Translations under genes and position numbers: made by a program
The notes under the pieces: generated by a model
The model's input: only the letters and a program-made list of their open reading frames with translations
What the model was told of the DNA's origin: nothing
The model's database searches: none
Shown here: one piece after another, positions 1 to 26,034 of the stretch
How the letters are laid out: each line of letters opens with the position of its first letter
Position numbering within the stretch: position 1 is the first letter of the stretch
Origin: a virus
Strand: one strand, 5' to 3'
DNA: 34,853 nt
IMG/VR virus record: IMGVR_UViG_3300028610_002683
Span: 1-34,853 of that record

Positions 1-144
1 CGCGGCGGGCGGGTTCTTCACAAATGCTATGCCGGGCAACGGGGTATATATTTCCGCTGGTGTCAATTTCGTGGTAGGTATGTACTACATAAAGACCTGG
101 ACGGATGCGAATAACGTTGTCCTGGACAGAAGTGCCTCGCCCGC
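1..144. repeat. Terminal direct repeat (copy 1), circular join
   Basis: Bases 1-144 are identical to 34710-34853. A reading frame runs uninterrupted from 34531 through this overlap and on to 1066. This is the usual sign of a circular molecule (unit length about 34,709 bp) whose assembly overlaps itself. A terminally redundant linear genome with a 144-bp direct repeat is the alternative and cannot be excluded from sequence alone. Confidence 0.95.
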
Positions 145-1066
145 GGGCGCGGGCGCGAATGGCGTTGGCAATGTCGGAGGCAGCAGAGCGACCCTCTTAG
201 ACGCCTTTTTTGAGGGAGTATCAGCAGGTGATACCATCTGGGTCATGGATGGCACTTACACCCTCACGGAGCAGATCACGGTTGCGAAGGTGGGAACTCC
301 GACCGCGACTATCAAAGTGTACGGATACAAGACCACCAGGGGCGATCAACCGCTGGACGACGACCGACCGTATATCATTTGCACAGTGGCCTTTTCTATC
401 GCACTCACGGATCACTGGTTTTTCCATCATTTTCGCATGTTGGGGGGCGCTCCACACGTCCTGCACTTGACCGGCGTATCCTCAAGAGCGCAGAACGTTA
501 AAGCACAAAACGACTCAGGAGTCGCGAATCGGTACGCTATCTGTGCGGACGGCAACGGCGCCATGGTTGAGGACTGTGAATGTATATCTGATAACGGTTA
601 CGGGCTTCACGTTAATTCTGAGGGGTTTGCCCGGTATAATTCCTGTCATGATTCCGTCCATGGGATGCACATTGACTCAGACGGTGTATGTCTTATAAAC
701 AATCTCTGCTATGATAACACGGATGGTATATATGTCACGTCTGACGATGTTAAAATACAGGGGAACACGCTTGACGATAATACAGGGGTCGGGATTGATC
801 TCACGACTGGTGAAATGTGCGACCTCATTAATAACATTTTAAGCAATAACCTGACGGGCGTCAATGCAACGAATCCCAGGGAGTCGAATTACCTGAACTA
901 TAACGACTTTTTCACTAACGGGACGGACGTTACAAACGTGGTCAAGGGAGCGAATACTCTGGCGGTCGATCCTGACTACGTGAATCGCGGTCTCAAGAAT
1001 TTCGCATTGAACCCCACGTCCGCGTTACTGGATGAGGGACTACACTTGAGGAAAGGTGTTGGATAA
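1..1066 (+). CDS. Beta-helix fibre-like protein (3' part; begins at 34531)
   Basis: This is the downstream part of a gene that starts at 34531 and crosses the circular join. The complete product is about 414 residues. From about residue 180 on it carries repeated short units of the parallel beta-helix type (pectate-lyase / PbH1 fold), visible as spaced 'GLHV', 'GMHID', 'GIYV' and 'GIDL' rungs each followed by an Asn/Asp-rich turn ('NNLCYDN', 'GNTLDDN', 'NNILSNN'). Such proteins in phages are usually receptor-binding fibres, spikes or glycan-binding/cleaving appendages on the virion surface. I see no clear catalytic residues, so binding rather than cleavage is possible. It follows the 505-aa protein by 2 bases and overlaps the next gene by one base (TAATG), so translation is probably coupled. 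Confidence 0.75.
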   Translation, partial: AAGGFFTNAMPGNGVYISAGVNFVVGMYYIKTWTDANNVVLDRSASPAGAGANGVGNVGGSRATLLDAFFEGVSAGDTIWVMDGTYTLTEQITVAKVGTPTATIKVYGYKTTRGDQPLDDDRPYIICTVAFSIALTDHWFFHHFRMLGGAPHVLHLTGVSSRAQNVKAQNDSGVANRYAICADGNGAMVEDCECISDNGYGLHVNSEGFARYNSCHDSVHGMHIDSDGVCLINNLCYDNTDGIYVTSDDVKIQGNTLDDNTGVGIDLTTGEMCDLINNILSNNLTGVNATNPRESNYLNYNDFFTNGTDVTNVVKGANTLAVDPDYVNRGLKNFALNPTSALLDEGLHLRKGVG

Positions 1067-5628: not shown

Positions 5629-6045
5629 ATGCCTACTAAAAGAGCGGTTGCATACAGCAGAGAGTCAGTCAAGAGGGCAGTAGAGGAGTATTTGGAGGAC
5701 GGCGAGGGTCTTAAAAGTCAACACGTCAGGAAGCCGGCAGGTCGAAGTTATCAATATTTTGAAGCACAGCAATACGGAGCGTATAATCTCGCGCAAAAGT
5801 TGGGCTTTGACTGTATGTGTACCCCGCACAGCGCCAAATCACCGGCGATCTGCAAATGCAAGATAAAGAAAAGCGGGATCAAGCAAGGCCATCAGATTTT
5901 GAGCGGTCTGGGGCGTGGCCCGTATGTTTTGGACGGTGCGGGATGCAGGGACGGTCAGGGGCTTTTTGTACCAATCGCACAATGTAAGGGGCCTGTAGGT
6001 CGCGATGAGGCCGGGAGATTCATTAGCATAAAGAGGGCGGCTTGA
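5629..6045 (+). CDS. Basic Cys-containing protein, unknown
   Basis: Product of 138 residues. The ATG follows AAAGGAGG. It is basic and contains a cluster 'CMCTPHSAKSPAICKCK' plus a later pair 'C-RDGQGLFVPIAQ-C-K'. This resembles the Cys pairs of other structural-block proteins; the first cluster could bind metal. The C-terminus ('GRDEAGRFISIKRAA') is basic. The Lys/Arg content and 'RESVKRAVEEYL' helix could suit nucleic-acid contact. The stop TGA overlaps the TTG start of the glycosyltransferase (TTGA), so the two are translated together. Function unknown. Confidence 0.65.
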   Translation: MPTKRAVAYSRESVKRAVEEYLEDGEGLKSQHVRKPAGRSYQYFEAQQYGAYNLAQKLGFDCMCTPHSAKSPAICKCKIKKSGIKQGHQILSGLGRGPYVLDGAGCRDGQGLFVPIAQCKGPVGRDEAGRFISIKRAA

Positions 6046-6764
6046 TCTTCGCATATCCAGAGCAAGAGACACCCTATAAAACAAACCCGGTCGCCTCTGT
6101 GATCCTGTGCGCTTATAATCACCTTAACGATCTGACGATCCCTTGTATCGAGAGCATCAGAGCTAATACTTTCTATCCCTACGAACTGATCCTCGTCGAT
6201 GATGGTTCCACAGATGGATCAATGCGCTATTTCAGGACGGTCTCAGAGAAAGCGATCCGCGTTCCAAGAGGGAGCGGAGCGGCAAGAGCAAGAAACGCCG
6301 GACTCGAGGCCGCCGCGGGCGATCCGCTAGTTGTCCTGGACAATGATACAATAGTACCCCCCGAATGGTTGACGATCCTCGTCCAGGAGGTGCAAAAACC
6401 CGGAGTCGGGATCGTGTCTGCTATCCCTTCGGATCAAGTGGATCGTCTGAACGGAAAGCGATCCCAAGATGGGCTTATCGAATACCAGAACGTTAGCGGA
6501 TTCTGTGCAGCGATAAGCCGTCAGTGTCTAAACGCTATAGGATACTTTGATGAAAGCCTCATCAGCGGAGAGGACACAGATTTTTGCTACAGAGCGAGGC
6601 AGCGAGGTTTTCGTATTGCTAACACGCCGCGGCTGATGGTTAAGTCCGGCGGAACGCGGCGGGAACTGGACAAACAGACCGAGAGGAGCGCGAGGCGGTT
6701 TATCCAGAAACACGCCGCCAGTAATCCCCATCTGCCAGCCGCGCCTCTCTATCCTTTTGGCTAA
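6042..6764 (+). CDS. Family 2 glycosyltransferase
   Basis: Product of 240 residues with a clear GT-A fold family 2 signature. It has an N-terminal 'ASVILCAYNHL' strand, 'VDDGSTDGS' (~53-60) that binds the nucleotide sugar, 'AARARNAGLEAA', and 'LDNDT' (~99-103) as the metal-binding DxD equivalent. 'GYFDESL...EDTDFCYRARQRGF' is the acceptor/ED motif. It transfers a sugar from a nucleotide donor; the acceptor is unknown. Start is TTG at 6042 overlapping the previous TGA, with GAGGGCGG upstream. It is the last gene of the rightward block. With two more glycosyltransferases on the minus strand, it may glycosylate virion proteins or alter host surface glycans. Family call is firm; substrate is not. 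Confidence 0.9.
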   Translation: MIFAYPEQETPYKTNPVASVILCAYNHLNDLTIPCIESIRANTFYPYELILVDDGSTDGSMRYFRTVSEKAIRVPRGSGAARARNAGLEAAAGDPLVVLDNDTIVPPEWLTILVQEVQKPGVGIVSAIPSDQVDRLNGKRSQDGLIEYQNVSGFCAAISRQCLNAIGYFDESLISGEDTDFCYRARQRGFRIANTPRLMVKSGGTRRELDKQTERSARRFIQKHAASNPHLPAAPLYPFG

Positions 6765-11683: not shown

Positions 11684-12388
11684 CTATGCCGATAGCCACC
11701 AGTCCATAACATCTTGAGCAGTCTGCCAGGTGGTCTCTTTTCCCAATTCGCGCCGCCTCTCTAGCATCTTGTCAAACGCCCTCATATAAGCCCGATAAAA
11801 GCCCGGAAACATGGCCGCCTCCGCCTTGCGCGCCTTTACGCCCGCCATAGGACACATGGCACAGCCGATGCGCTTCTGATGCTTATAAAGGGAGCATACA
11901 GGGAGACCGTGATCATGCGTATACTCCCAGACCTCCGCCGTAGTCCAATCAAAGATCGGATGCACAAAGGTCTTGAGTTTGTATCTGTGGCACGTTTCCA
12001 CATAATACCGTTGACTCCGGGCGTGGCTTTCCTGTTTGCGTATTCCCGTTAAGACCCGGCGGTCATATCCGCCGCGCTCTTTCAGGTATTCACAGCAGTA
12101 TCTAATTTTCCTGGTTGGAGGGATACCCTTCTTCACTATTAACTTCCACATGGTAGTCTCTGGCTTTTCTATCTTAACGTCTGGGTAGTTATCCCTCAAG
12201 TGATCGATTACTGGACGCGGGTCAACTGAGGTCTTGTTAAAATGAGCGTCAAACTTGACGCCTGATCGCAGAAGCAGATCATATACTACCCCGCTTCACT
12301 TACCGCCAGAGATAGCGGCGTAATATCCCTCCTCCGGGCAAAACATCTGTATACGCTCTATAGCTGTTTGTATCTTCGCCTCGTGCAT
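11684..12388 (-). pseudogene. PAPS reductase-family (CysH-like) gene interrupted by TGA in the PP-loop
   Basis: Reading from the ATG at 12388 (which shares its A with the upstream stop, TAATG), 234 codons give a full-length PAPS-reductase / ATP-PPase-family protein except for one in-frame TGA at codon 31 (12296-12298). Landmarks are 'RIQMFCPEEGYY', 'AISGGK-TGA-SGVVYDLL', 'SGVKFDAHFN', 'TTMWKLIVKKGIPPT', 'IRYCCEYLKERGG', 'VLTGIRKQES' and 'KRIGCAMCPMAG' (paired Cys for an Fe-S cluster or disulphide). The TGA stands exactly where the SGGKDS motif has its Asp. Everything after it is intact; a TTG at 12199 could restart but would lack the ATP-binding loop. So this is either a broken gene, a sequence error or a recoded codon. 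Family enzymes activate substrates by adenylation in sulphur metabolism or nucleic-acid modification. Confidence 0.85.
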
Positions 12389-13017
12389 TAACTAAGCGGC
12401 TTCTGTGTTATAGTGTGCAGAACAACGTAAAGGCCAAAAGGCTTGAGGCCGTACAGCTTTTTATCAAGATCAATGTAGCCGTCTATATGATGCGATTCTG
12501 GCAGAAATTCAGGAATTGCGATCGCGCTGATCTTCCTGATAGTCCATTTGGCAACCTCCTTAAAGTCGCCGCTTACATTTGTGGCGATCTGTGTCTCAAG
12601 CGCAAGCCGCGCCAGCGGATCATTTTCTCTTGCGGTCATTTCACCGAATAGATTGACAGCGAAAAAGGAGAGCGGTTCTGATATAAACTCCTCGCCGTCA
12701 ATCAATATCGTTAAATGTCCAGATTGCAGCGCGGTCATTAGGTCAATCAGAAAAGTATGTTTTTCTGGCCGCGCTACAAGAGAGACCCGATAGATTAGTG
12801 TCTCATGTGCGACCGGTGTCATACGCTCCCTTGTAAAATTCGTCCACTCTTTGTCGCCTATATGCCCACAGAATAGACCAATAGTTGCGTTCGCGTCTAC
12901 CTCTTGTGGGATCGTTATCCGGTAATAGTATGACTTCATACACCACTCTCTAAACTCCCGCACTCCCACGCCCGGAATATCAACAGATCCGGGCGCTAAT
13001 GGTTTTTGTTTTCTCAT
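12388..13017 (-). CDS. Capsid-candidate homologue in the leftward block
   Basis: Product of 209 residues. It aligns by eye along its length with the structural candidate at 30142-30801: 'PG-x3-I-x-GVGVR-x-F' near the start, 'Y-x-R' a little later, 'IYRVSL' versus 'IYRINV', 'LTILIDGEEF...PLSFFA' versus 'FEMVLDDDN...PVVVFP', and the last residues 'YVVLHTITQKPL' versus 'YVILDVLMTRPL'. The pattern is all-beta. Start overlaps the upstream stop (ATGA) with GGAGGCG before it. It may be a second capsid or vertex protein made from the other operon, or a decoy/regulatory derivative. Confidence 0.7.
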   Translation of the reverse strand: MRKQKPLAPGSVDIPGVGVREFREWCMKSYYYRITIPQEVDANATIGLFCGHIGDKEWTNFTRERMTPVAHETLIYRVSLVARPEKHTFLIDLMTALQSGHLTILIDGEEFISEPLSFFAVNLFGEMTARENDPLARLALETQIATNVSGDFKEVAKWTIRKISAIAIPEFLPESHHIDGYIDLDKKLYGLKPFGLYVVLHTITQKPLS

Positions 13018-13592
13018 TCTTCGCCTCCATCACCAGCGGTCGCGGTCCGAAAATCCGACAACTCCGCGGCATATCCACAGTCAATGCACTTTGCTACTAC
13101 GGCCTCATGTTCAGTGAATGTTATAATGCCATCGGATGAACAGCCACACTCAGGGCAGACTAGCCCGGAGTTATCATCAGAAGAAATGCCGATCTCCCGC
13201 TCCGCCAGTTTATCCGCCTCGTCCTCTAATCCATTGACTATGTGGATCGCAAGCATAGCGGCGGCGTCCCTGTTTTCGATCAGTTCCGGATTCCACATTG
13301 TCTCAGAACTTTGGATCAGATTCGTTATCATGTGGATCAATTCTTCTCTGTTGGCGCAAATACCCCGACCGCTTTCTGTTTCTGTTACCTCTGCCATTTC
13401 TACCTCAACCTCCTCGTAGCTTACTATGTGTGTCATAACGTATGCGATTAGACCCCCGGCGATAGCTTCCTCGGAACCCGCCCTCAAGAGAGCGATAAAC
13501 CCATACGCCGCCTCTCTACTTCCCGCCTCAAAGTAAAGACCCTCCTCGTCAAGTCCGATCTCTACCTGAGTTTTTCCGATCCGTCCGTTCAT
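13014..13592 (-). CDS. Unknown protein with C-terminal zinc ribbon
   Basis: Product of 192 residues. The C-terminal ~60 residues include 'C-PE-C-G-C' and 'C-ID-C-GY', a standard C-x2-C ... C-x2-C zinc ribbon. The N-terminal 130 residues are acidic and helical ('VSYEEVEVEMAEVTETE', 'LIHMITNLIQ', 'AAMLAIHIVNGLEDEADKLAE'). ATGA overlaps link it to both neighbours, with AAAGGGGG before the ATG. The zinc ribbon suggests contact with transcription or other nucleic-acid machinery. No enzyme signature is seen. Confidence 0.65.
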   Translation of the reverse strand: MNGRIGKTQVEIGLDEEGLYFEAGSREAAYGFIALLRAGSEEAIAGGLIAYVMTHIVSYEEVEVEMAEVTETESGRGICANREELIHMITNLIQSSETMWNPELIENRDAAAMLAIHIVNGLEDEADKLAEREIGISSDDNSGLVCPECGCSSDGIITFTEHEAVVAKCIDCGYAAELSDFRTATAGDGGEE

Positions 13593-14050
13593 TCTGCCCC
13601 CTTTGCCATGCTATCACTTAGCAAAGCTATATGATTTCCTGTCCTTCCTTTTCCTCGTTTCCGTCGAGCAGACCAACCATCCATGTCGAACCTGCTAAAA
13701 ACAAGCACCTTATCATCCAAAGAAACGAGATCATACAATTCTTCTACGTCCTCATTATACATTGCTACACATCCCAACGTGGATCGCTCTCCTATTCCTT
13801 CGGATTTGCCTATACCGTGTATTGCCAATTTTCGGTATGATCCTGCCGGATACCTGTTTTTGGACTCTGCCTGTGGATGGAAATAGATGCACCGAGTTCC
13901 CACCTCGTCAGACGCAACAGGATCGCATTTTTTCGCATAGATAGGAAACAAGCCAGTAGGCGTTGGACATGCCAAAATCCCTATCCCGATGGGATATATC
14001 GTCCCATTATAATACAACCGAAATGTGTCCTTGTTGACAAGTATATCCAT
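13589..14050 (-). CDS. L,D-transpeptidase (YkuD family)
   Basis: Product of 153 residues. 'TPTG-x-F-P-I' (~30-37) and the catalytic motif 'IHG...ERSTLGCVAM' place His78 and the nucleophile Cys94 as in YkuD-fold L,D-transpeptidases. These form 3-3 cross-links or attach proteins to peptidoglycan through a Cys thioester. There is no signal peptide, so export is unexplained; it might act with host export, on internal peptidoglycan precursors, or in reverse as an endopeptidase. The last residues are basic. Its stop overlaps the next ATG (ATGA). Family confidence is high. The role, whether host wall modification during infection or lysis, is inference. Confidence 0.85.
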   Translation of the reverse strand: MDILVNKDTFRLYYNGTIYPIGIGILACPTPTGLFPIYAKKCDPVASDEVGTRCIYFHPQAESKNRYPAGSYRKLAIHGIGKSEGIGERSTLGCVAMYNEDVEELYDLVSLDDKVLVFSRFDMDGWSARRKRGKGRTGNHIALLSDSMAKGAE

Positions 14051-20283: not shown

Positions 20284-20985
20284 TTAGCCTCGCCTCCGGT
20301 GATAGTTAAGCGCGTTCTGATAGTTTTGCCGGGAAAACGTATCATCAGGATCAGTCAGGACGCGCCGCCTCAATATTTCGAGGTTTCTGGCGTTCTTTGC
20401 TGCAACCTCGCTCTCATTCCAGTAGCCGGAATGTTCTATGCGAAGGTCAGTTACCTCCGTCTGGACTCCGATCCTTTGCAAACTGAGGAGGTTTTGCTCA
20501 TGCAAAGGTATCTCCCACACAACGCCCGGCAACAGTGGGAAAATGCGTACCTGGGGAACCAGAGTAAAACTACCATCCTTCGAGGGCGACCCTTGCCACA
20601 AATAGAACGCTTTGAGGCGCGGCGCAGTCATTAAGGACACGATCCGCGCTGCAACGTCCCGTCTGATCCATTCGTCCGTGTCCATCCACAACACGTATAC
20701 CATGACTCCCAGGTGCGCGGCATACTCACGCGTCACAGAGAGCGCGATATTTCGCTGATACGCAAAATCGTTTCTCCACGCGCTTGTCACAACGCGACAG
20801 CCGTACTCATTAGCCACGTCATACAAGGATTTTCCTGCACTCCCGTCAAAAACAACGACGATCAAATCTGAAACAAGGGCGGCGCTCTGAATCATCCGCC
20901 GGAACCTTGAGACCCGGCATTTGCCGGCGATCACGTTGCACACCAACGGCACACGGAAGGCATCAGGATTTTTACTGACGATCAT
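20284..20985 (-). CDS. Family 2-like glycosyltransferase
   Basis: Product of 233 residues. The pattern 'SWRNDFAYQRN'-like ('SAWRNDFAYQRNIAL'), 'YVLWMDTDEWI' (Asp102, Asp104 as DxD), and 'FEARFFP'-equivalent 'PQVRIFPLLPGVVWEIPLHE' is typical of family 2 enzymes related to SunS and lipopolysaccharide-type transferases. It starts a leftward operon behind the promoter at 21014-21041 (GAGGG before ATG) and is followed by 20024 with a 2-base gap. It probably works with 19163 in building a short glycan. Target, whether capsid proteins or host surface, is unknown. Confidence 0.85.
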   Translation of the reverse strand: MIVSKNPDAFRVPLVCNVIAGKCRVSRFRRMIQSAALVSDLIVVVFDGSAGKSLYDVANEYGCRVVTSAWRNDFAYQRNIALSVTREYAAHLGVMVYVLWMDTDEWIRRDVAARIVSLMTAPRLKAFYLWQGSPSKDGSFTLVPQVRIFPLLPGVVWEIPLHEQNLLSLQRIGVQTEVTDLRIEHSGYWNESEVAAKNARNLEILRRRVLTDPDDTFSRQNYQNALNYHRRRG

Positions 20986-21777: not shown

Positions 21778-23152
21778 GCTACAAGACCCTGAAAAGAATC
21801 AGAAAAATATGGTGAGGGTCGATCCTCTTGAGCGGATCGCTGCGCTCAAAGCCGCGGATTGGGACTTGACGATCCTCCTTAGCAGGACAAGCGGCGCAAC
21901 CAGCGGCGGGATCAAACAGTGGCACATAACAGAGGTCGATCCTCTAACGTTCTATGATCTGATTTCCGAATTGCTGGGAGGCGGCGCTTATCGTATGGAG
22001 TTCAGGAAACCGGACGCAACCCTCCTACGCCTTGAGGGTTCGGAGAAATTGGAGACCCACACTTTCACGATTGCCGGCAAACCCAAACTCGTAGTTGAAA
22101 ACACGAAGGAAAAAGCAAAGAGCGCGGAGGGCGGCGACTTCTGGCAAGACTTCATGAAAGAGGGCAGCGTTGGTCAGATGCTAATTAAAACGTTCCTTGA
22201 TCAGCGGGGCAAGCCGGATGAGCTATTGATGGAACTGCTAAAGACCGCGATTGGGGATAAAGGAAGCAACGCAGACCCCACCGCCCTCCTCGCCAACGTA
22301 ACGGAAACGGTGGTGAAGCTAAAAGAGGCAGCAGGAGAGAGCGGCGTTGATCCGATGCAGTATATATCGCAGTTTATGACAATGATGAATCAATACAATC
22401 TGGCAAACAAGCCGCCGGTTACTACCACAGGATCGAACAGCACCGGCCTTGATAAGTTTTTCGAGTCTCTTGGACAGGCCGCGCCCGCGTTCGCTCCTAT
22501 AATTGCCAACGCCTTTAACAGAGGAAACGGGCAAGACACAGCAGAAAACCCGGCAAGCCTCCCCGCTGCCACACCAGAGGCACAACCAGCTTTCGCGGGA
22601 ACCGAACCAGCCACAAATAGAGTCAGTCCCGATCCCGCACCTGGTGATCCACCGAAAAAAGTCAATCCGTTATCCGCCTTCTCCGCTCAAGACCTGGGAG
22701 GCGATCCTTCGCTCAGTCCAGCGTCGGCGGCTTTCGGCGCGATCATGAAATTGAGGTATATGATCGGTCAGGAAGCCGATCCTCTTGACATAGCGTCGGA
22801 AATGATTGACACCATTAATCTGATCAAGGGAGCAAGGCGCGTCGATGGGGCCTGGGAGAACTTCATTGACGATCCCGGCGAGGCTTTTGATGAATTCGCG
22901 CCTCTGATCCCAGAGTGGCTTGAGAATCCACAGTATAGGACGGATTGCAGAGCGGCTATGGTGAAGGCACTCACAGACTACTTTGAGTCAGACGAGATCG
23001 AGGAGCAGATTATAGACGGAGCAGAAATTGAGATTGACCATGCTGCACCTGATACAGAATCCCCTATCGAGGCAGACACCGCGCCAGATGACACAGTTGT
23101 CGCAACTGTCGACCATGAGGGGTCGAATGACAACAGTATCATCGACGGATGA
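21722..23152 (+). CDS. Large unknown protein with disordered middle and acidic tail
   Basis: Product of 476 residues; GGGAGG before ATG. The basic N-terminus ('RQLIRKLVNGKEPERK') is followed by a structured ~90-residue part ('WHITEVDPLTFYDLISELLG'). A helical region (~140-270) leads to a disordered Pro/Ala-rich linker (~270-320), a second helical domain (~330-415, 'GAIMKLRYMIGQEADPLDI') and a strongly acidic tail. This order (basic head, helices, acidic tail) is seen in scaffolding and assembly proteins. No ATP-binding loop is present, although in many membrane phages this neighbourhood carries the packaging ATPase. Function unknown. Confidence 0.65.
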   Translation: MGLRQLIRKLVNGKEPERKLQDPEKNQKNMVRVDPLERIAALKAADWDLTILLSRTSGATSGGIKQWHITEVDPLTFYDLISELLGGGAYRMEFRKPDATLLRLEGSEKLETHTFTIAGKPKLVVENTKEKAKSAEGGDFWQDFMKEGSVGQMLIKTFLDQRGKPDELLMELLKTAIGDKGSNADPTALLANVTETVVKLKEAAGESGVDPMQYISQFMTMMNQYNLANKPPVTTTGSNSTGLDKFFESLGQAAPAFAPIIANAFNRGNGQDTAENPASLPAATPEAQPAFAGTEPATNRVSPDPAPGDPPKKVNPLSAFSAQDLGGDPSLSPASAAFGAIMKLRYMIGQEADPLDIASEMIDTINLIKGARRVDGAWENFIDDPGEAFDEFAPLIPEWLENPQYRTDCRAAMVKALTDYFESDEIEEQIIDGAEIEIDHAAPDTESPIEADTAPDDTVVATVDHEGSNDNSIIDG

Positions 23153-23627
23153 TCGGGTCGAACTGATCGCAAAGAACATCCAGAAGGGCAGGATCGATCC
23201 ATCGGTTCATACCTTCGCTGCTATGGCTTTAGCACAGCGATGTGGGGATCAGTGGTGTATCCAGCCTCGCGATTGGGCAGGAGAAGTGCAGCAGTTAGGG
23301 CGCGCCATCCAGGATAGGGTGAGGTATACCCTCGACACCTATAACATAGACACTTATAGAACCCCAGCGCGCACTTTGCAAATGGCGATAGGCGACTGTG
23401 ATGATATGGCCGCGCTGGGAGGCGCGGCGCTGCAAGCGATTGGCTATCCTATCAGGATCAAGGTGATCCAGATGAACGGTCAGAGCGATTTTCATCATAT
23501 ATATCTGATGGTAGGACTACCTCCTCACGATCCCCAGAACTGGATCGCGTTTGATCCGACTCAGGACACACCAGTCGGAGCGGAACCGACAGGGATCATA
23601 GATTCGATTCTTTATAATGTAAACTAG
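23127..23627 (+). CDS. Transglutaminase-like cysteine protease/peptidase
   Basis: Product of 166 residues from the ATG after GAGGGG; longer starts overlap the upstream gene more heavily. The catalytic set is visible: Cys91 in 'IGDCDDMAAL', His123/124 in 'DFHHIYLMV', Asp143 in 'WIAFDPTQD'. This is the transglutaminase-like superfamily, whose members cleave or cross-link proteins or peptidoglycan stems. 'YRTPARTLQM' before the Cys is usual. It overlaps the 476-aa gene and ends before a terminator. A role in virion maturation or cross-linking is plausible; protease or wall hydrolase are alternatives. Confidence 0.8.
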   Translation: MTTVSSTDDRVELIAKNIQKGRIDPSVHTFAAMALAQRCGDQWCIQPRDWAGEVQQLGRAIQDRVRYTLDTYNIDTYRTPARTLQMAIGDCDDMAALGGAALQAIGYPIRIKVIQMNGQSDFHHIYLMVGLPPHDPQNWIAFDPTQDTPVGAEPTGIIDSILYNVN

Positions 23628-23739: not shown

Positions 23740-26034
23740 ATGCTAATTGCGATTGAGGATAAAGAACAGCTTTTCAGGGGCATATTCGGTCAGACGCCGG
23801 CCACGCCAACAGCGCAGCCCCCTTTGATAGAGGTAACGCCCTCGCTCTACGCCCGACACGCCATCGGCTACTCGCTCAAGTCAAACGCCCAACTCTTTCA
23901 GAGGATGGGTGTCTCTGTCCCGACCTACGGGAACCGGACGAGGATCGTCGCGCCTCCTCAGCTATTTGACCCGGTTCTCAGAAGCGCCCTCGCGTGGTCA
24001 CGGATTACCTCTTATCCAAGAGTTTATTTCTACTTAACGCGGGATCAAAATTACGTCGTCAGCGACTCAAGGTGGATAAACGTTATCACTGAGTCGTATC
24101 TTGCGGCCTTTCTGGGTCGGAACTATAGCTTTTTCCGTGGAGCGGCCGTCGTAGCAACACCGACTCTTTTTGGGCAACTCGTAAGAAGCCCGGCGGTCTA
24201 CGCAAAACACGCCCTCGAATATGCTTTCAAGCAATTTGAGTCGCCTCTTCAGAGGCTAGGCTATAGACAGCCGTGGATCAGGACTGGCAGCCGGAAGGCG
24301 ATCCCGCCGGATCTGTATAATCAGATTCTCGATTTCGCCTTGAAATGGGCGCGCACCTACCCCAAACAGTACAAAGGCATTATAGACGGCAAAGACTATT
24401 ATGTAAGCGAAAGCAACCCGGAAGTTGTCGGTATGACACCCAAACCCTACCTGAACAACTACCTCACCAGATATTACCTCTTCGTGCAGACCGCAGCGAC
24501 CCCGACAGTCGTTACCGTAACGCCGCCCGCGCCCCGCAGAGGGGTTATGCCGCCGATAACCGCGAACGTCCAGGAGATCGTGAGGCACAACCTGGAATTT
24601 AACAACATACCGCCCATAGCCGGAAGTGTACGTGGCGATATATACGACGCTGTTGTGAGCAAGTCCAGTATTGATATACTTATGATAGAAAGGGCGCAAG
24701 ATATAGTCCCTCCACCTGGTATAACTTACGACGATCTCAAGGGAAGGAACCGGGAGGCGGTTCTGTATTACATGAACTCCCTCGGTCTCATTCGCGGGTC
24801 AACGAGGCAGTCGCCCCAATTCATATCAACAGTGAGGGGAACCGCCCCTCTCGACCCCTCGCAAGAGCGCCAATGGTGGGGATCGACAGATAGAGAGCGG
24901 GCGGAGTGGGCAGTAACGGCAGTTTTAAGGGCTTTGGGAGTCAGATATTCCACGCGTGGAACTACCATCACGCCACAACAGGCGGATCAGGTTATACCGG
25001 GGGCGCTCCAATGGCTTGAGGCTGTAGCGTCCGATCCTGTCTTTGTCATAGACGCGGGTGATCGGCGCGATATCGAGATCGCTAAGAACCTGGTCAACGT
25101 CAATCTTCTGCAAAGGATGCGGATCACCATACAGACGCCAGCACCGCCCCGGACTCCGCCCCGGAAACGGACACCGACTCCGACCCCAACGCCAACGCCG
25201 GCAATTCCGACCCCAACGCCAACGCCGGCAATTCCGACCCCAACGCCAACGCCGGCAATTCCGACGCCAACGCCAACGCCGGCAATTCCGACGCCAACGC
25301 CGGCAATTCCGACCCCGACGCCAGCAATTCCAACGCCAACGCCGGCAATTCCGACGCCAACGCCGGCAATTCCAACGCCAACGCCAGCAATTCCAACGCT
25401 AACGCCGGCAATTCCGACCGAAACGGCTATAGAGGAATTCATGCGGCAGGTTTTTGCGATTGTTCTGCCCAAGTTTGGATTAGCTTTGAGATACCCGCGA
25501 CCGTATTTCATCCCGGACGTGGGCCGGCGCGAGGTCGCTGGTGAACTCCTCTGGGAAGGCGAGCGCCTCGTCAGGGAAACGCCCGGCGATCCAATACGTG
25601 GGAGGATCAGCCTTTCCGCTGCAATGATAGACGCGGAACTCAGGGAGCGAAACATATTCCCAGAGAGTGAATACACTGTAATAGTAACGGCTACTCCGGT
25701 AGTGAGCGGAGAGGCGGCGCTCAGGGAATGGGCGGCAACCGCTCCCATATTCGAGACATACGCCGCTTGCAGAGCAGCGGCGGAGGCTCAGGTGGGCAGA
25801 GTGCCGGATCAGTGGCGCGATTGTCTCTGCGAGGCGGACATGATCGATCAGGCAGTAAGTCACGCTTTGGTTATGGGCGGTCTACGACCCTATCCGGGCA
25901 GTTTGGAAGTCACGGAGGCAGTCTTTGACAGTGTCGCGGCGGTGGGTCTAGCCATAACTCAGCAGATGGTATACCAGCGCACCTATACGCCTGTCTTCGG
26001 CGGTCAGCATCTACCCTTCCGAACCCCTGGGTAA
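23740..26034 (+). CDS. Large modular protein with repeated helical domains and Pro-Thr hinge
   Basis: Product of 764 residues (ATG at 23740; GTG at 23737 also possible). Two tandem ~110-residue domains fill residues ~30-260. Both have 'YA[RK]HA', 'LQR[ML]G', a 'PP..[FY]...L..AL.W' helix and a Tyr-rich end 'TATPT'. Two or three more distant copies follow (~270-465). A Thr-Pro hinge of TPTPTPAIP-type repeats (~475-565) leads to a C-terminal ~200-residue part with related helices and a Cys cluster 'DCLCEAD'. No enzyme motif. The modular build with an extended stiff hinge suggests a spike or fibre reaching out from the capsid vertex. Confidence 0.7.
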   Translation: MLIAIEDKEQLFRGIFGQTPATPTAQPPLIEVTPSLYARHAIGYSLKSNAQLFQRMGVSVPTYGNRTRIVAPPQLFDPVLRSALAWSRITSYPRVYFYLTRDQNYVVSDSRWINVITESYLAAFLGRNYSFFRGAAVVATPTLFGQLVRSPAVYAKHALEYAFKQFESPLQRLGYRQPWIRTGSRKAIPPDLYNQILDFALKWARTYPKQYKGIIDGKDYYVSESNPEVVGMTPKPYLNNYLTRYYLFVQTAATPTVVTVTPPAPRRGVMPPITANVQEIVRHNLEFNNIPPIAGSVRGDIYDAVVSKSSIDILMIERAQDIVPPPGITYDDLKGRNREAVLYYMNSLGLIRGSTRQSPQFISTVRGTAPLDPSQERQWWGSTDRERAEWAVTAVLRALGVRYSTRGTTITPQQADQVIPGALQWLEAVASDPVFVIDAGDRRDIEIAKNLVNVNLLQRMRITIQTPAPPRTPPRKRTPTPTPTPTPAIPTPTPTPAIPTPTPTPAIPTPTPTPAIPTPTPAIPTPTPAIPTPTPAIPTPTPAIPTPTPAIPTLTPAIPTETAIEEFMRQVFAIVLPKFGLALRYPRPYFIPDVGRREVAGELLWEGERLVRETPGDPIRGRISLSAAMIDAELRERNIFPESEYTVIVTATPVVSGEAALREWAATAPIFETYAACRAAAEAQVGRVPDQWRDCLCEADMIDQAVSHALVMGGLRPYPGSLEVTEAVFDSVAAVGLAITQQMVYQRTYTPVFGGQHLPFRTPG
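25155..25420 (+). repeat. In-gene minisatellite (Thr-Pro / AIP hinge)
   Basis: Tandem units of 27 bases then 21 bases, built on CCAACGCCGGCAATTCCGAC, encode TPTPTPAIP then TPTPAIP. The last copies decay (TLTP, TETA). Copies are nearly identical at DNA level, so the array is probably length-variable by slippage. Not a CRISPR: no unique spacers and it is in frame. Confidence 0.9.

Follow-up and report, generated by a model that had tools for sequence, protein, structure and literature searches.

How does a virus come to carry a stop codon at the very residue of a catalytic loop that its relatives hold constant? The gene that raises this question lies on the minus strand at 11684-12388 of the window, by which we mean the whole 34,853-base virus record analysed here, and encodes a PAPS-reductase-like protein (a PP-loop ATPase with four conserved cysteines) of 234 codons that is broken at codon 31. 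Read from 12388 down to 11684, the frame gives MHEAKIQTAIERIQMFCPEEGYYAAISGGK, a stop and then SGVVYDLLLRSGVKFDAHF, after which it stays open as far as a TAG at 11684. The in-frame TGA (12298-12296, minus strand) is flanked by SGGK and SG, and in the family alignment the conserved Asp falls on exactly its column; where the viral relatives compared have an SGGKDS loop with its Asp, the window gene has TGA instead, a codon that matches neither GAT nor GAC at any position. The earlier note had placed the TGA precisely at this Asp of a PAPS-reductase gene, in a frame otherwise intact and coupled to its neighbour through TAATG. Frame translation and the family alignment confirm each of these points: the ATG of the reductase gene overlaps the TAA of an upstream 209-residue ORF on the same strand (12388-13017) that has no family match.

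We consider what kind of gene has been interrupted. With a Cys placed at codon 31, the protein matches the Pfam profile PF01507 across the domain (residues 24-181, E=1.9e-19, 70.8 bits vs a cut-off of 22.5) and, with one residue set at the stop, it matches PHROG 424, phosphoadenosine phosphosulfate reductase (E=3.4e-32); 87 viral loci match it over its full length. Among viral proteins of this family, AZF89934.1 of the Methanosarcina virus MetMV is 48.7% identical to the window protein along its full length, and identity to IMG/VR loci reaches 54% over 200 columns. The SGGK-x-S loop and the cysteine motifs are common to the window protein and these relatives, namely the CC at 98-99 (within RYCC) and the CxxC at 176-179 (within GCxxCPM), so that the window protein is family-like in all but the TGA that replaces the invariant Asp. 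GC content by codon position is nearly the same before the TGA (0.53/0.40/0.57) as after it (0.53/0.42/0.59), and both parts of the frame therefore look coding. The gene is thus a common phage auxiliary gene of a sulfur-metabolism-like family, PAPS-reductase-like members of which were present in 13 viral genomes of one biogas study (PMC8879888). No second copy that could compensate for the broken one is found within the window.

The surroundings of the gene are those of a very divergent virus. Most of the scanned ORFs match nothing in Pfam or PHROG, three other window proteins retrieve no relatives in IMG/VR, a 505-residue protein has no relative in the phage collection, and positions 1-25000 have no near DNA match among phages or plasmids. 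Three genes upstream of the reductase and in the same run, an L,D-transpeptidase catalytic domain (YkuD, PF03734, E=2.6e-15) is encoded at 13589-14050 on the minus strand, which points to a bacterial, peptidoglycan-bearing host. Elsewhere we find two family-2 glycosyltransferase genes (6042-6764, plus strand, and 20284-20985, minus strand), possibly for modification of the host surface or of DNA, a right-handed beta-helix protein (PF13229/NosD-like; 29-1066, plus strand), possibly of tail-spike type, and a protein with a transglutaminase-like domain (PF01841, E=4.6e-07; 23028-23627, plus strand). A tandem repeat of 21/27 bases occupies 25179-25418 within an ORF of 765 residues, and the tRNA-Ser that ARAGORN reports at 25314-25408 is false, as it lies on the other strand of this repeat. 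Rfam returned two sub-threshold matches and nothing else.

If the TGA were read as an amino acid, relatives should tell us, and the earlier note had proposed searching them for the same codon. We scanned IMG/VR with a profile seeded on the YCC and GCxxC motifs, and therefore without bias from the loop itself, which gave 356 relatives; the best 80 of these, together with loci found earlier, make up 87 loci that can be read at the TGA column. All 87 have Asp there, with neither TGA nor Cys in any, Cys being what homologues of a genuine selenocysteine protein should show, and removal of duplicates leaves 69 distinct proteins that all have Asp and in which the preceding Lys and the following Ser are likewise invariant. 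The gene is uninterrupted in each of the 87, and the sole stop seen (in locus L006) precedes that gene's start. We also scanned IMG/VR with a degenerate DNA pattern (GGK-TGA followed at the correct spacing by GVxF), and 84,980 prokaryote genomes with a similar pattern that included flanking Ser codons. These scans returned 1 and 14 stretches, respectively, none of which encodes a relative, although both collections may omit records very near the window, and a near-identical sister is possible. The TGA is thus not conserved among relatives, which carry a normal Asp in every locus, and the expectation of recoding fails.

The same alignment bears on how old the lesion could be. Conservation reaches at least 99% at 21 columns, and of these the window gene departs at the stop alone; the other 20 are all intact, including the cysteines of the CC and CxxC motifs, and the lesion is therefore either recent or not real. 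Had the gene been dead for long, more of its conserved sites would be gone. Taken with the three-base difference from an Asp codon, the absence of any other loss at these columns finds its best explanation in one multi-base event or in an error in the consensus. At the 40 columns conserved at 95% or more there are four departures (P58, E59, G171 and the stop) where the relatives average 0.58, a slight excess of the sort that relaxed constraint would give. The end branch of the window gene is also somewhat long (1.19 vs a median of 0.62), and a divergent lineage alone may account for the excess.

We now turn to signals downstream of the TGA. The earlier note had drawn attention to a 5-bp stem with a 9-base loop as a candidate selenocysteine signal; the stem exists (TGATC-TGCTTCTGC-GATCA, 12263-12281, minus strand, loop 19 nt past the TGA), and the proposed role does not hold up, since its folding energy is only -2.5 kcal/mol and, under a looser rule (a stem of at least 5 bp and a G among the first two bases of the loop), a hairpin follows 610 of the 1233 TGA triplets in the window, which puts it at chance level. 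A second hairpin, GGCGTCA-AGTT-TGACGCT (12245-12262, minus strand), has a 7-bp stem and -9.0 kcal/mol, lies in the codons of a conserved GVKFDA and places its loop 40 nt past the TGA. In the published model of a bacterial SECIS, the stem has 4-16 bp, the loop has 3-9 nt with G among its first two bases, UGA and loop are 16-37 nt apart, and the energy is -7.5 kcal/mol or lower (PMC13188914). Within that range of spacing the best of the simple, unbulged hairpins scanned in the window gene reaches -4.2 kcal/mol.

With these observations in hand we can ask whether the UGA is translated at all. Selenocysteine at this position of the PP-loop is already largely refuted and we consider it barely credible. 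The -9.0 kcal/mol hairpin does have G at loop position 2, but its 40-nt spacing lies outside the published range. A 61-nt stretch beginning at the TGA folds more stably than shuffled versions (z=-3.0), yet 4% of the window's TGA triplets do as well, and about 6% have after them a 60-nt stretch that is at least as stable. Like bacterial selenoprotein genes with a bSECIS, the window gene has an in-frame TGA with an open and conserved frame downstream; unlike them, it has no Cys or TGA homologues and no simple hairpin of the required kind, and tRNA-Sec, SelA and SelB are not found in the virus record. Selenocysteine, moreover, takes the place of a redox Cys, whereas the PP-loop Asp at codon 31 is not a redox residue. 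In a survey of the Sargasso Sea selenoproteome, a candidate needed homologues with Cys opposite its TGA, and singletons were excluded as potential products of sequencing error (PMC1088965); the window gene has no such homologue. A broader alternative, that functional readthrough or a UGA reassigned in the host supplies some amino acid at codon 31, is very unlikely. UGA followed by A, as here, is a fairly weak terminator, and beyond the stop the frame remains wholly open and is conserved. Against this, TGA terminates 19 of the 52 window ORFs of 80 residues or more, which bears out the earlier remark that other genes end in TGA and the code is not changed genome-wide; a reassigned TGA would rarely serve as a stop and would often occur within genes, and the virus therefore uses the standard code, in which TGA is a stop. 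Among the other recognisable window genes none was seen to carry a TGA interruption, and, with only Asp in the homologues, the loop would very probably be inactivated by Trp, Gly, Arg or Cys at codon 31. It accordingly seems to us extremely improbable that the virus makes a PAPS-reductase-like enzyme whose expression depends on the host decoding UGA, as selenocysteine or some other amino acid, at the Asp position of the ATP loop. Such a case would matter if true, as we found no selenoprotein in the literature consulted with UGA recoded at a catalytic-loop residue other than cysteine.

What remains of the options listed by the earlier note, with readthrough and selenocysteine set aside because the relatives all have Asp and the TGA is not conserved, is a broken gene or a sequence error. 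Our main reading, to which we give a probability of about 0.5, is a real nonsense allele of an ordinary phage PAPS-reductase-like gene. The TGA would stop translation after 30 residues, within the ATP-binding loop, and a restart at the first suitable in-frame codon downstream, TTG at 12199, would yield a product of 171 residues that lacks this loop, so that no working enzyme would be made. Because TGA differs from the Asp codons at three bases and the other near-invariant sites are intact, such an allele would most likely go back to a single recent mutation of several bases (a local template switch, say) and not to stepwise decay; short inverted arms (GAAGC/GCTTC) flank the TGA and could support a template switch, though they are suggestive only. 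Set against a nonsense allele are the chance of about 1 in 234 that a random lesion hits the catalytic-loop Asp, the rarity of three-base changes inside one codon, and the fact that a consensus error yields the identical sequence. That last explanation, in which the true codon is Asp and the contig consensus is wrong through paired small errors or a mis-joined variant, we place at somewhat under even odds. It draws on the intactness of the remainder of the gene and the absence of any broken homologue, on the source of the sequence (an IMG/VR-type virus record, hence most likely assembled from mixed DNA), and on the TGA being a singleton, for which the authors of the Sargasso study cautioned that in-frame TGA codons may come from sequencing errors (PMC1088965). 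However, a three-base error that leaves the frame undisturbed is unusual, and the contig gives no obvious sign of frequent errors, since its other predicted ORFs lie close together and seem uninterrupted, though most of them have no homologue against which this could be tested.

Returning to the nonsense allele and its closest competitor together, the sequence comparisons make it almost certain that this TGA reflects an isolated mutation or an error in the sequence and not a new reading of the genetic code. The main value of the locus is as a caution on assembled viral contigs in which an in-frame TGA is seen as a singleton.
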